Positions 1,999 through 10,163 of a DNA stretch of 21,874 nucleotides are shown in pieces. The DNA comes from a virus. Position 1 is the first letter of the stretch; the number at the start of each line of letters is the position of its first letter. The DNA is taken from positions 1 through 21,874 of IMG/VR virus record IMGVR_UViG_3300031566_000417. One strand, given 5' to 3'. A program made the translations under genes and the position numbers. Below the pieces are notes generated by a model. The model was not told the origin of the DNA and ran no database searches. It saw only the letters and a program-made list of their open reading frames with translations.

Positions 1999-3597
1999 TT
2001 AGAAAAGGTATCCATCATCATCGTCCTCGCCGAAGTGGATTTCAGGTACATTCTCGCCGTCGTCGGCGTCCACGTCAAGGAAGTGCGTGCGGGCTGCTCC
2101 GACAAGCTGGCTGAAGGCATCGACCATGTCGTCATGCTTTCCGAAGGGGAACTCGATCAGCTCGTCGACTAACGACCCGCGCGAACCGTCGAACCGTGAG
2201 GCGTTCGGGTCCAGGTGCGCTGAGAAGATTACCTTGCCCTTCTCGAGCAGCGGCGTCGTTCCGAGCAGCCGCATCTGCTTCGACATCTTCGGCTTCGTCA
2301 CCTTCACGAGCGAGGTCATCTCCGGGTACTCGTTCATCACCCACTCGTCTACCGTCGCCAGGCCCGCCTTCTCGATCAGAACCTGCCACGGCTCGTACGT
2401 CATCGCCTCCTCGTGGATCACATCCGCGATGGACTTCACCGACATCCGGCGGTGCCACGCGTCGACGATGTAGATGTCTCCGCGCTCGCGGTCGATGGCG
2501 GCGATGCACGCTCCAGTGAAGTCCTGGTCCTTGTTCCCCGTCGGCGTTCCGGCCGGATCGTAGCTCGTCAAGAAAATCGCCTTCTCCTGCTCGACGATCT
2601 GGTTGAACCGCTCGTTCATCCGAAGGTCGGAGAACTTGAACCACGACGGCTGGATGAGCGCGCTCTCCGTGTCGATGGCCTGGTTGCGGAACGCCCTGTT
2701 GAACTCGATGCTCCCGATCTCGTCGTACCGCAGCCGGAGCGCAGCGTCGCTCCACTTCCCCGGCCAGATCGCGCCGAAGTTCTCGTCAATGTCGTACCGG
2801 AGAACGCGATACGCCTTGTTCTCCATCAGCTCGTGCGACAGGTCCGACGGTGACCACAGCGTGCAGATGTACCAGACGCGCGAGTCGGGCTCGAGGAGGT
2901 TCGTCCAGTCCGACTTCCACGCCTGCTTGATCTGCTCGCGCAGCGCCGGGAATGACAGGGCGTTGCGCCGGTCGACGACGTCGTCGGCGATGAGCAGGTC
3001 GGCGCGTCCACCTGTCGCCGTCGACGTGATACCGAGGGCCTCGACGCTCGCGTCGCGGTGTCGCGCGCTCCTCTTCAGCACCAGGCGGTGCGCGTTCCAC
3101 GGCGCGGCCGGATCCGGTACGAGGTGCGGGAAGACCTCGCGCACCTTCGGGTTCGTCGTCAGGTGCTGATCGATCTCGAACAGCCTCTCCTTGGCTCGAC
3201 CGTCGGACGCGCACACGATCTTCGTCCGCAGGTTCGGGTTGCGCCCGAGCTCCCAGATCGCCCGGCCGACCACGTTGCTCGTCTTCGCGTGATCGCGGGG
3301 CGCGATAACCATCACGCGCTGATACCTGTCCCACGCGTGGTGCCATTCGTCGTGGAACCACTGCTGCTTAAAGGGCAAGGTCGTCGTCTCGTCGATGAAG
3401 CAGTACTCCATGAACGACGACGCGGATTCACGAGCAAGCATGACGTGGCGGAGGCGCATCGCCTCGGCTCGATGAATGAGCTGCGACCTCGACTGCGTCG
3501 CGATAAACTTCTCTCGATTAAGACGCGGGAGGTGGCCGCTCGGATCGCGGTACTTGTGATGAATTACTCCCATCAGCTGTGCGGCCGTCGCGTTCAC
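1999..3597 (-). CDS. terL: Terminase large subunit (ATPase-nuclease)
   Basis: This is the DNA-packaging motor: an N-terminal ATPase translocates phage DNA into the prohead and a C-terminal RNase H-like nuclease cuts the concatemer. In the 532-aa product I see a Walker A-like VIAPRDHAKTS (about residues 98-107), a Walker B LLIADD (201-206), and a coupling-motif-like TLWSPSDLSHEL (246-257). The nuclease half has SYDPAG (D347), DQDF (D359), LIEK (E409) and the C-terminal KHDDMVDAF (488-495) acidic cluster. The start is GTG at 3597, sharing one base with the methyltransferase stop (TAGTG), behind a GAGGGGGG SD. ATG at 3573 is the alternative. The frame continues upstream, but only as a shadow of the methyltransferase gene. 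It ends in an acidic tail (GEDDDDGYLF). Confidence 0.93.
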   Translation of the reverse strand: MNATAAQLMGVIHHKYRDPSGHLPRLNREKFIATQSRSQLIHRAEAMRLRHVMLARESASSFMEYCFIDETTTLPFKQQWFHDEWHHAWDRYQRVMVIAPRDHAKTSNVVGRAIWELGRNPNLRTKIVCASDGRAKERLFEIDQHLTTNPKVREVFPHLVPDPAAPWNAHRLVLKRSARHRDASVEALGITSTATGGRADLLIADDVVDRRNALSFPALREQIKQAWKSDWTNLLEPDSRVWYICTLWSPSDLSHELMENKAYRVLRYDIDENFGAIWPGKWSDAALRLRYDEIGSIEFNRAFRNQAIDTESALIQPSWFKFSDLRMNERFNQIVEQEKAIFLTSYDPAGTPTGNKDQDFTGACIAAIDRERGDIYIVDAWHRRMSVKSIADVIHEEAMTYEPWQVLIEKAGLATVDEWVMNEYPEMTSLVKVTKPKMSKQMRLLGTTPLLEKGKVIFSAHLDPNASRFDGSRGSLVDELIEFPFGKHDDMVDAFSQLVGAARTHFLDVDADDGENVPEIHFGEDDDDGYLF

Positions 3598-5709: not shown

Positions 5710-6912
5710 TCATGCGTTCCACGCATCCCAGTCGGCCATCGTCAGCGCGACCTTGTCCTGCTCCTTCGCGTAACTCTCGAAGGAATATTTCGTGTAGATG
5801 CCCGCCATCAACCAGTAGTGGCGAAAGACCTTCACGAGCGAGTCCGTCCAGTGCTTGCCGATGAATCGCTTCGTGCGACGGTCGACTGCCTGGTTCAGCG
5901 GCGTATACTGCTGCGGGTACGGACGAATTCCGAGTCGAACACATTCGCGCGCTCTGTAGTAAGCATCGCGCGGAGTATCATTAAAGTTGAAAAGGCAGTA
6001 GGCCATAATTTCATGTTTGGGTACTCCGTGCGCCTTCAACATTTCGACCGCCGGCTGGAATACGCCGTCTTCCTCAATCCGGTCGAAGGCGACGCGCATT
6101 CCGCTCCGCGTATACTTGATCTTTCCGAGTCGTACCGCTATTTCATCGGTGATGTATTTCACGTCGAAGCCGTTATCAAAGTTAACCCTCTTGCCACATG
6201 CTACTAGAAAATCGAGGACCTCGTTGAGGTGCTCCGGCGGCGTTGCCGGTAAATTATTATCGATTAGCATCACGTGTTTCTTCTCAGCAACAATATGATC
6301 GCGCCAGTTAGGGATTATCAACGGTTCGGATTCAATCCTCCATGTCGCGCAATAGGCGCATTTGTTAGGACAGCCGCGCGACGTGAAGCTATAGCTGAAA
6401 TCATCCCACGGCGCTTCAAGCTTCCACGGAAGAGAATAGTCTGGAACGCAGTAATCGAGTGCAGGAGAATAGCCGAGGAACAGGTCAGACTTCCCGTTCG
6501 TCCTCGCCTTAATATCCTGCGGCATAAGCGACGCGTACACGCCACCGACGAGGATCGGCGTACCGCGACCGAACTTCTCTGCGTGCTTGATCGCGCCGAC
6601 GACCTTGCCGGAATCGTAGGTGAACAGCGACGTCACGCAGATGAGATCGACAGGCGGACCGTAGTAGCCGCGGCCGAACCAGACCTTCCCGCCGTGCTGC
6701 TTCACGAAGGTCGCGATTTTCGCGAGGCCTAGCGGGACGTGCTTTCTGGTATAGCCAGGCTCGAGCAGAAATACTCGTTTTGCCTGGCGAAGCCGGTCGA
6801 GCATCTCGTCCTCGGTCAGCGCGCCGTCGACAGTCCGAAGGCACGTCCCGCACTTCAACCTGGTCTCGACTTCGTCGTCGGCGTCGAAGTTGGTGGTGTT
6901 GATGTCGTTCAT
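5710..6912 (-). CDS. Radical SAM protein with B12-binding-like N-terminal domain
   Basis: The 400-aa enzyme contains SRGCPNKCAYCATW (cysteines 181, 185, 188), the CxxxCxxC [4Fe-4S] site that cleaves S-adenosylmethionine to a 5'-deoxyadenosyl radical. Before it, residues about 45-155 resemble the Rossmann domain of B12-dependent radical SAM enzymes (VFLLEPGYTRKHVPLGLAK, DLICVTSLFTYDSG, ILVGGVYASLMPQDI). I see no DxHxxG cobalamin motif, so cobalamin may not be bound. A CGTC pair lies at 21-24. ATG 6912 has a strong GGAGGG SD. The stop overlaps a possible ParB-domain start (ATGA). The stretch 5930-6500 is visibly more A/T-rich than neighbouring genes, suggesting separate acquisition. Substrate unknown. 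Coupling to a C5 methyltransferase suggests DNA or nucleotide modification (inference). Confidence 0.88.
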   Translation of the reverse strand: MNDINTTNFDADDEVETRLKCGTCLRTVDGALTEDEMLDRLRQAKRVFLLEPGYTRKHVPLGLAKIATFVKQHGGKVWFGRGYYGPPVDLICVTSLFTYDSGKVVGAIKHAEKFGRGTPILVGGVYASLMPQDIKARTNGKSDLFLGYSPALDYCVPDYSLPWKLEAPWDDFSYSFTSRGCPNKCAYCATWRIESEPLIIPNWRDHIVAEKKHVMLIDNNLPATPPEHLNEVLDFLVACGKRVNFDNGFDVKYITDEIAVRLGKIKYTRSGMRVAFDRIEEDGVFQPAVEMLKAHGVPKHEIMAYCLFNFNDTPRDAYYRARECVRLGIRPYPQQYTPLNQAVDRRTKRFIGKHWTDSLVKVFRHYWLMAGIYTKYSFESYAKEQDKVALTMADWDAWNA

Positions 6913-7770: not shown

Positions 7771-8430
7771 TCACCTCGCGTGGTCCGGCAGCTTGCCGGA
7801 CGTCATGAACTCGACGATGTCCTCGTCAGACCAGTTGCCATACCTGTCCTCGCCGCGGTGCTCAATGCTCGCGTCCGGCGCGCCAAGCACGCGCTCCATC
7901 AGGTGGACCGCGCTCTCGTACGACTTCAGCGCCGACGACAGCGACGCCCCCGTCTCGATCTCCATCCCCTTGCTGTCCTTGTACTTCTTGACGCGCCGGA
8001 AGACCTCGGCACGAATCAGCTTCAGTTCCGCAATGGTCGTGCCGACGATCTCCTCGAGCTCCTTCGTCTGCTCCTCGTGGAACTTCACCAGCGTCAGCTG
8101 CCGCTTCTCCTGCGCCTCGACCTGGACGTCGAGCCACGCAGCCTTGATCGGCACCAGCCCCACGTCCGGTCGCGCCGGACCCTCGATGTAGAATTTCGCC
8201 GTGCGGAAGGTAACGCCGACCGCCTTCGAGGCAGCATCGATGGATTGCTTCGCGAAGTATGCCTTCTGCAAGGCGTTGTACTTCTCGACCGAGATACCCG
8301 GCGCATTGACCCGCTTCTTTTTCGGCGCGCGTGGAGGCGGCGCTGGCGGTCCGTCCGGCACCTTTCCTGCCCCCATCTTACCAGTCGGTTTGGCCTTACC
8401 GCCCACGCTTGGCTTGCGTCCGTGGCTCAT
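7771..8430 (-). CDS. terS: Probable terminase small subunit
   Basis: The 219-aa product would recognise phage DNA and load it onto the large terminase. A basic Pro/Gly/Lys-rich N-terminus (about 45 residues) is followed by a helix-turn-helix-like region, EKYNALQKAYFAKQSIDAAS then KAVGVTFRTAKFYIEG (about 48-85). Next comes a long charged coiled coil (EAQEKRQLTLVKFHEEQTKE; ELKLIRAEVFRRVKKYK) suited to oligomerisation. The C-terminal segment reads LKSYESAVHLMERVLGAPD then IEHRGEDRYGNWSDEDIVEF, a pattern common at the end of small terminases. ATG 8430 overlaps the RHH gene stop (ATGA). Unusually, it is separated from terL by four genes. Family call is by eye; a generic HTH protein is the alternative. 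Confidence 0.62.
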   Translation of the reverse strand: MSHGRKPSVGGKAKPTGKMGAGKVPDGPPAPPPRAPKKKRVNAPGISVEKYNALQKAYFAKQSIDAASKAVGVTFRTAKFYIEGPARPDVGLVPIKAAWLDVQVEAQEKRQLTLVKFHEEQTKELEEIVGTTIAELKLIRAEVFRRVKKYKDSKGMEIETGASLSSALKSYESAVHLMERVLGAPDASIEHRGEDRYGNWSDEDIVEFMTSGKLPDHAR

Positions 8431-8633
8431 GTCTTTCCCTCGTTCAGCATCCTGCGGAGGGTTCCGACGAATGGCCTGGTCTCGCGCCTCACCTTGTCAA
8501 GGGTGGCCGACACCATCAGCTCCGTAACGGTGGTCTTCTGTACCACGGCAGCGGTCTGGATCTCTGCTTTCTCCTCTGGCGTGACCCGGATGTTGAGCTG
8601 CTCGGTTCTGCGTCGTTCGCGTGTATACGCCAT
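8427..8633 (-). CDS. Ribbon-helix-helix DNA-binding regulator
   Basis: The 68-aa protein has the RHH layout: a basic arm, a beta-strand TEQLNIRVTPEEKAEI (about 10-25), then two helices (AEIQTAAVVQ and TVTELMVSATLDKVRR). It resembles the DUF1778/TacA-like antitoxin and CopG/Arc groups, which bind operator DNA as dimers. No GNAT or other toxin gene is adjacent; the next gene is the probable small terminase, overlapped by ATGA. The frame is open upstream to 8798, but that extension runs through the tmRNA. ATG 8633 has no SD, and a sigma70-type promoter places the transcription start at or near this ATG, so translation is likely leaderless. An inverted repeat around the start suggests autoregulation. 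Confidence 0.85.
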   Translation of the reverse strand: MAYTRERRRTEQLNIRVTPEEKAEIQTAAVVQKTTVTELMVSATLDKVRRETRPFVGTLRRMLNEGKT

Positions 8634-8649
8634 TGCTAGTCTATACACG
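8620..8649. promoter_or_regulatory. Inverted repeat, probable RHH operator
   Basis: CGTGTATA (8620-8627) and its exact complement TATACACG (8642-8649) flank a 14-nt centre. The repeat covers the -10 box and the start codon of the RHH gene, the expected place for an autoregulatory operator. RHH proteins typically bind short inverted half-sites. The left arm also contains the palindrome GTATAC. Confidence 0.55.
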
Positions 8650-8669
8650 AGCCACGACCATGGTGTCAA
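8640..8669 (-). promoter_or_regulatory. Sigma70-type promoter for the RHH-terS operon
   Basis: On the minus strand TTGACA (8669-8664) and TATAGA (8645-8640) are separated by 18 nt. Six bases after the -10 box comes the ATG of the RHH gene, so the transcript would begin at about 8633 without a leader. The -35 box lies 7 nt beyond the mature 3' end of the tmRNA. Confidence 0.7.
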
Positions 8670-8675
8670 GCGATT

Positions 8676-9016
8676 TGGAGATGCCCGGAGTCGAACCGGG
8701 GTCCGCCGGGATCTGCTTTCCGCATCGTTCACGAGCGTAGCTCCTTCGTTCCTGGAGCCCTGGGCCAGGAGCACTCCCAGGGCTCGCGCCTCCACCACCG
8801 GCCCTTTGAACGGAGGCCGGATACCGCTTTCGTCCGTGTGATGACGCGCCTACCCGCTACTCAGACTCCTCGCGGGCGGCACGGGGGCCGATTATCAGGC
8901 CGCCAGTTTCCAAGCGTTTTCGGCGTTTGGAGTTTCCCAGCCGTTCTGACCCGGTGACTGGAAACCGGGGCGCGCAGCGGATCGCTTCCTCTCGGCGTCG
9001 AAACCGTTTCATCCCC
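8676..9016 (-). ncRNA. ssrA: tmRNA (transfer-messenger RNA), one-piece
   Basis: The 5' end (9016) reads GGGGATGAAACGGTTTCGACG, shown here without its final bases' context, the hallmark tmRNA start. The 3' end reads GGTTCGACTCCGGGCATCTCC plus discriminator A at 8676. GGGGATG and CATCTCC form a 7-bp acceptor stem with one G-U pair. CCCGG-TTCGACT-CCGGG makes the T arm. CCA is not encoded. A pseudoknot-like pairing (CCCGGT/ACCGGG with GTTTCC/GGAAAC) lies just before the tag. The tag frame ends AWKLAA followed by TGA TAA (8897-8892). The RNA would rescue stalled ribosomes with SmpB and mark proteins for proteolysis. It lies between phage genes on the same strand. No alphaproteobacterial-type permutation is seen. 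Confidence 0.93.
8892..8930 (-). other. tmRNA tag-peptide reading frame
   Basis: The frame reads PNAENAWKLAA and then TGA TAA. It aligns with the E. coli tag ANDENYALAA, including N-x-EN and the terminal LAA that ClpXP-type proteases recognise. The resume codon is uncertain: CCA at 8930 by alignment, or GCC at 8924, which would give AENAWKLAA and the alanine start usual in tmRNAs. Confidence 0.7.
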
Positions 9017-9077
9017 TTGTCAATGAGCTGGTGTGCTGATCATCCTGAGCGAGGGTCTAGTTCTGCTGCTATCCCGC

Positions 9078-9461
9078 TTAACCGCGTATCCAGCGGTGGA
9101 TGGGGCCCGCGGCACTGGCGAAATTGACGCCGCGCCACAGCAGCAGTTCTCCCGTCTTGTCGTTGGCGATATCCACGGAATTGACGCCGGTGCACTTGTC
9201 CAGATAGTTCATGTGTTCGGACGAGTTGAGCACCGAGAAGCAGAGCAGCCGCACCACGTCCTCCGGCTTCGGCTCCGCGTCGGGCAACACCACCGCCTCG
9301 ACCTGCTGGTCGAGTACCACGGCGGAGTCCATGCCCAGGTCCACCTGGACGGTAACCCCGTCCTCGTCGTTGCCAACGTCGTGCTGCGCGGCCCCGCCCA
9401 TGATCATGAGCAGAGCCAGGCAGACGATGCAGGCGAACATCACTCCGAGCAGCTTCATCAT
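9078..9461 (-). CDS. Small exported protein of unknown function
   Basis: The 127-aa product begins with KLLGVMFACIVCLALLMIM and then GGAAQ, a signal peptide or N-terminal membrane anchor with a possible signal-peptidase I site. No lipobox cysteine follows. The mature part is acidic with valine-rich strands (DGVTVQVDLGMDSAVVLDQQ) and two cysteines. ATG 9461 follows AGGAGG at 5 nt; ATG 9458 is equally possible. It is the last gene before the tmRNA. No family recognised; a phage-coded envelope or superinfection protein would fit, but nothing shows it. Confidence 0.75.
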   Translation of the reverse strand: MMKLLGVMFACIVCLALLMIMGGAAQHDVGNDEDGVTVQVDLGMDSAVVLDQQVEAVVLPDAEPKPEDVVRLLCFSVLNSSEHMNYLDKCTGVNSVDIANDKTGELLLWRGVNFASAAGPIHRWIRG

Positions 9462-9524
9462 CGCGTCCTCCTTCTGTCGGTTCGGTCTAACCACCGTCAT
9501 GCAGGTTTCATTATCTCCCAACTG

Positions 9525-9560: not shown

Positions 9561-10163
9561 TCATCGTGCGCTTGACTTCTCAGGCGTCCGACCGTGGCGA
9601 TGGACCGAGCCGCCGCGGCGAACGTCCACCGGGCCCTCGGCGTCAGTGAACGTCACCGTGGCCGTCGGTTCCTCGATCATATGCTGGTACGCGCGGATCG
9701 CCACGTGCTTCCCCGGGTCCACTTTGAGCCGGCGCAGCAGCGACAGCAGCACGCGGACCTCGGCCCTGCGATCAACGTCGAACGCGGAAGACGCACGACG
9801 GACGTGGACCCGGTGGTCATCGTCGGCTTCGATGAATCCCCAGCCCTGTGGGATCTCGTCCTCGGCGAGCACGCCGACAGGAGCCAGGTAGTACCGCTGA
9901 ACGCCCATCCCCATCTCCGGGTGGCGCCGGCATGGCTTCGCGGCATCGGCCTTGAAGTCTGAACGGGAGGTCTTGCACTCGATGAGGACCGAACTCGCGA
10001 AGCCCATCCACCCCAGGACGTCCGGCGTCTCGCTGGCGCTCGTGACGATCTCCGTGAGCACGACGCAGCACGCAGAATGACCTCCGTAGGCAGAAGACGC
10101 CGGATGCCACGGACGGAGAAGCCACCTGCGGCCTACCTCGACAAGCTCTGCGTGCTTCAGCAC
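9561..10163 (-). CDS. PD-(D/E)XK-type nuclease-like protein (MmcB-like)
   Basis: The 200-aa protein contains VLIECKTSRSDFKADAAK (about 59-76), the E-x-K plus 'SR-x-DF-x-x-D' pattern of the MmcB/PD-(D/E)XK repair-nuclease group. Next come GVQRYYLAPVGVLAEDEIP and GWGFIEADDD (about 87-115), the 'YY.AP.G...P..WG' strands that follow in that family. The likely metal-binding residues are the Glu and Lys of ECK and an upstream Asp or Glu. It would cut or process DNA. GTG 10163 is used: it overlaps the upstream stop by 7 nt, and its SD (GAAGG) is very close. The C-terminus is Arg/His-rich. Confidence 0.7.
   Translation of the reverse strand: MLKHAELVEVGRRWLLRPWHPASSAYGGHSACCVVLTEIVTSASETPDVLGWMGFASSVLIECKTSRSDFKADAAKPCRRHPEMGMGVQRYYLAPVGVLAEDEIPQGWGFIEADDDHRVHVRRASSAFDVDRRAEVRVLLSLLRRLKVDPGKHVAIRAYQHMIEEPTATVTFTDAEGPVDVRRGGSVHRHGRTPEKSSAR

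Follow-up and report, generated by a model that had tools for sequence, protein, structure and literature searches.

The window analysed here, a 21,874-base IMG/VR virus record of an uncultivated phage, carries a complete, structurally intact one-piece tmRNA (ssrA) gene on the minus strand at positions 8676–9016. The reading that we favour, with a probability of roughly 0.7, is that this is an intact tmRNA of a tailed-phage lineage, placed between two conserved phage genes, processed by the host, and active in rescuing ribosomes together with host SmpB. Eight loci from related phages cover the same site without the gene, and both the origin of the tmRNA and its possible use to the phage are considered below in the light of that contrast.

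Identification and anatomy of the tmRNA gene

A first-pass annotation of the sequence had proposed a complete tmRNA gene at 8676–9016 and had named an Rfam covariance search as the check. ARAGORN reported a single RNA gene in the window, a tmRNA, at exactly these coordinates on the minus strand, and the Rfam model RF00023 matched 8673–9016 on the same strand over all 374 model positions with 81.2 bits (E 2.1e-30), far beyond chance and well above the family's gathering cut-off of 47 bits; RF00023 was the sole family reaching threshold in an Rfam scan of the window. The parts of the gene are as follows.

8676–9016, minus strand: tmRNA (ssrA) gene, one-piece, 341 nt (ARAGORN; RF00023, full length)
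8677–8683, minus strand: CAUCUCC, the 3' strand of the acceptor stem, pairing with GGGGAUG at 9010–9016 (7 of 7 pairs)
8892–8924, minus strand: tag reading frame, GCC GAA AAC GCT TGG AAA CTG GCG GCC TGA TAA, giving AENAWKLAA and two stops (ARAGORN; resume codon by alignment)

The 7-bp acceptor stem contains a G3-U70 wobble, the mark of alanine acceptors, and carries a discriminator A at 8676, which together satisfy the requirements for alanine identity; a T arm is also present. The discriminator is followed by AAT rather than an encoded CCA, so the CCA end must be added post-transcriptionally. This absence had been recognised at first pass and stands, whereas its interpretation as a sign of specialisation is not supported, given that a full CCA end is encoded in only three of 13 comparison phage tmRNAs. 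All four pseudoknot regions were located: pk1 with both stems (5 and 6 bp), pk2 with its long stem (6+6 bp) and its second strand not resolved, pk3 with both strands (the two strings overlap and, taken as successive stems, give 4 bp and 5 bp), and pk4 with both strands (stems of 10 bp and 6 bp). Helix 5 consists of 4 bp (GGCC/GGCC), and its loop encloses the stops UGA UAA. The plain folding energy of the RNA was not better than that of shuffled sequences (z -0.68), a value that carries little weight because pseudoknots are absent from the folding model.

The tag frame occupies tmRNA positions 93–125, and since CCA, AAC and GCC share one frame upstream of and within it, several starts are possible. 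GCC aligns with the alanine resume codon column of 13 other phage tmRNAs, and the preceding CCAAAC is common to the tmRNA of a different phage (L042, IMGVR_UViG_3300009037_000004), where it is followed by GCG; the tag is therefore read as AENAWKLAA plus the alanine that the charged RNA would supply. Of the tag NAENAWKLAA first proposed, the LAA-ending frame holds, but its first residue, N (AAC), falls within the pre-resume CCAAAC. A CCA resume codon (proline; tag PNAENAWKLAA) was dropped, as the alignment with L042 and the other phage tmRNAs places GCC at that point. In a published alignment, alanine is the usual resume codon, Gly, Asp, Arg, Ser and Glu are the exceptions, and proline is absent from those listed (PMC1168896), which makes the GCC resume codon here an ordinary one. 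The +2 codon, GAA, departs from the commoner AAN, and the second codon of the Mycobacterium tuberculosis tmRNA, GAU, likewise departs (PMC4236655). A resume codon, a hydrophobic LAA-type end and a stop in helix 5 are thus all found in the frame.

Genomic neighbourhood and the unoccupied site in related phages

The genes flanking the tmRNA lie on the same strand, as had been noted at first pass, and the same-strand genes of the window include those for the terminase large subunit (TerL), a cytosine methyltransferase, ParB-like, radical-SAM, candidate small terminase, ribbon-helix-helix (RHH), membrane/lipoprotein-like, MmcB-like and DNA-topoisomerase-like proteins. The features on which the comparison turns are these.

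1999–3501, minus strand: TerL (PHROG 38, E 3.6e-72)
7771–8430, minus strand: conserved gene, a small-terminase candidate on positional grounds only (54–64% identical in nearer relatives)
8427–8633, minus strand: small RHH-like gene directly downstream of the tmRNA (Pfam NikA-like, E 3.8e-9; TacA1, E 2e-6)
8640–8669, minus strand: RHH promoter-like element, TTGACA-18-TATAGA, with the -35 starting 6 nt past the tmRNA 3' end
9078–9521, minus strand: small membrane/lipoprotein-like gene directly upstream of the tmRNA (C-terminus matched in L012 and L044)
9561–10163, minus strand: MmcB/DNA-repair-like gene (PHROG 631, E 1.3e-33; PHROG 5429, 'DNA repair protein')

The 7771–8430 gene matched no Pfam or PHROG family. 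The earlier placement of the tmRNA inside a packaging region was right as to the phage genome and less so as to the exact position, for TerL is about 5 kb away and the immediate neighbours are the RHH and membrane/lipoprotein-like genes. The packaging half also contains a radical-SAM-like gene (5710–6912, PHROG 9298) beside the ParB-like and cytosine methyltransferase genes; the radical-SAM-like product is 60–65% identical in L008 and L012.

Searching IMG/VR with the window's TerL gave 38 loci, 37 of them at about 50% identity or more, on contigs that reach about 102 kb. The best-listed TerL matches from isolates are only about 21–25% identical, and the phage group is therefore an uncultivated one. 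In relatives whose TerL is 52–82% identical, the gene order is kept but the tmRNA is missing. ARAGORN found no tmRNA in any of the 38 TerL loci, and RF00023 gave no match over the cut-off in 28 whole related records (one 89-base sub-threshold match occurred in G026). Eight relative loci, two of which (L003 and L005) have nearly the same sequence, span the RHH gene (protein 53–61% identical) and its upstream side, and there the gap to the next open frame is 34–145 bp, compared with 444 bp in the window, 341 of which are the tmRNA. The order in L012 is that of the window, namely MmcB-like (51% identical, same position), membrane protein, RHH and conserved gene, and in L044 the membrane protein likewise precedes RHH; the C-terminus of this protein reads ..GPIHRWIRG in the window, ..SPIHRWIRA in L012 and ..SPIHQWIKS in L044. 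Its neighbours recur in L012, L044 and other relatives, and the tmRNA gene is accordingly embedded in phage DNA.

It follows from the L012-like order without tmRNA that either the window lineage gained the gene or all sampled relatives lost it. The simplest reading is a gain in the window lineage, just upstream of a promoter common to the relatives; the alternative, a loss in every relative sampled, is possible but less economical. Two contigs, L002 and L038, are 99.96–100% identical to the window and end before the site, so that the tmRNA is known from one contig, and searches with the candidate small terminase and the MmcB-like protein disclosed no new sites with a tmRNA. TTGACA stands both directly before the tmRNA 5' end (9018–9023) and just past its 3' end (8664–8669), a pair that is possibly a trace of insertion or target duplication, or possibly chance.

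Comparison with known tmRNAs

With bacterial one-piece tmRNAs (ssrA, RF00023) the window's gene shares the full-length covariance match, tRNA-like domain, tag frame, helix-5 loop stops and pseudoknots; it differs from them in being phage-borne and in its tag AENAWKLAA, its +2 codon GAA and its lack of an encoded CCA. Complete tmRNA genes are also present in the genomes of other phages, including mycobacteriophages (Bxz1/Wildcat) and Bacillus phage G (PMC4131195), Melnitz-like marine phages, Bradyrhizobium elkanii phages (PMC12656738) and huge phages (PMC7162821); compared with these, the window's one-piece gene belongs to a different, uncultivated group and is accompanied in the window by neither a riboswitch nor a tRNA array. 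The first-pass view of phage tmRNAs as rare is not supported, since a published survey counts 402 carriers among 18,146 phage genomes, a share that it gives as 2.3% (PMC9004378), and one sequence pattern run on IMG/VR returned 13 further contigs with tmRNAs. The 137-kb phage contig L042 packs 31 tRNA genes into 13.3 kb and also carries a tmRNA, whose tag, ANDNHFVEEIRAAA, is unusual.

The window tmRNA is about 43–49% identical to 13 aligned phage tmRNAs, with the likeness concentrated in the ends; its GUGAACGA motif before the T arm is found in other phage tmRNAs too, while most of the others found have ANDNVEFDYALAA-like tags, unlike this one. A DNA similarity search of phages and plasmids gave no near match to the tmRNA, only tiny chance matches, and no closely similar bacterial tmRNA was found. 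Neither the tag pattern nor a longer tmRNA pattern had a viral match, and a T-arm/acceptor pattern was set aside: of the three contigs that it matched, two had it in tRNA-Arg genes and none in a tmRNA. The first 21 bases occur in one genome among 84,980 species, a Candidatus Uhrbacteria bin, which was rejected as the source lineage because the rest of its tmRNA is different; its phylum is also an unlikely host. In that bin, different contigs (L041/L061 and L060) give two full-length tmRNA matches that exceed the cut-off. Neither is called by ARAGORN, and they may represent a second gene, a foreign element or contamination.

Predicted expression and function

No promoter was recognised for the tmRNA itself, and its RNA may arise by transcription from upstream followed by processing. 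The promoter on its downstream side is that of the RHH gene: in most relatives the same distance separates TTGACA-18-TATATA from the start of RHH, and a TTGACA-17/18-TATATA-like element is kept in nearly all relative loci. Motifs resembling GTATATAC recur at this promoter, in the window (8590–8675) and in L003, L004, L005, L008, L009, L011, L012 and L044, and the RHH start region also carries such motifs in most relatives (GTCTATACGCG), which suggests a putative operator for autoregulation by the RHH protein.

Trans-translation by tmRNA with SmpB, alanyl-tRNA synthetase and EF-Tu is established. On the favoured reading, host enzymes would process the transcript (RNase P for its 5' end, exonucleases and the CCA-adding enzyme for its 3' end), which would then be charged with alanine by host alanyl-tRNA synthetase through G3-U70. 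No match to SmpB families was obtained in the window or in 12 related records, whereas control genomes do match, so host SmpB would be needed; with it and EF-Tu, the tmRNA would free ribosomes that stall on broken mRNAs in the course of infection, and the rescued chains, tagged with A-AENAWKLAA, would pass to host ClpXP-type proteases. The earlier suggestion of rescue late in infection or redirected tagging is a plausible hypothesis.

Alternative explanations

Among the alternatives, the one with most weight, though still unlikely, is that the gene is a recently captured host ssrA, carried as a passenger after imprecise excision or recombination, of no benefit to the phage and intact only through recency. 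Host ssrA is a known integration site, ssrA fragments occur in prophages (PMC9004378), and the absence of the tmRNA from all eight relative loci covering the site and, above cut-off, from the 28 related records agrees with such a capture. However, tyrosine integrase families had no match in the window or in 12 related records, several of about 95–102 kb, although control genomes do match, and no second partial tmRNA copy was found in the window; with the gene itself complete, a remnant of ssrA integration (att) is therefore, as far as tyrosine integrases can tell, improbable. Moreover, the tmRNA has the GC content of the phage, its helices are intact, and its sequence leads to no near phage or plasmid match and to a single bacterial genome that shares only the 5' end.

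It is considerably less probable that the tmRNA serves to alter tagging or proteolysis, either through competition for SmpB with the host's own tmRNA or through a different fate that AENAWKLAA gives to tagged proteins. The departure of the tag from ANDNVEFDYALAA-like sequences would fit this, as would the RNA of phage DS6A, which comprises little beyond a tRNA-like domain and has been discussed as tmRNA-inhibitor-like (PMC4131195), but LAA, on which the tag ends, is the standard protease signal, and with an intact mRNA-like part nothing points away from ordinary trans-translation. A counter-host device with its own tag, acting through SmpB competition or altered fate and situated next to the RHH/packaging operon so that its expression is timed, would be a long shot. 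An assembly chimera of phage DNA and a bacterial ssrA locus, the concern raised at first pass, is scarcely credible despite the restriction of the tmRNA to one contig, since both flanks are of the same phage type, with the order and orientation of L012 and of relatives without the gene, and two precise joins within the one intergenic gap that the tmRNA fills would be required.

Implications

Phage tmRNAs were already known, and in this respect the window offers a further, fairly ordinary example. It adds an uncultivated phage group, with related contigs of about 95–102 kb, to the carriers of tmRNA, and it provides a clean presence/absence contrast between one lineage with the gene and eight relative loci in which the same site is empty. 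This contrast is useful for asking what a phage gains from a tmRNA of its own.
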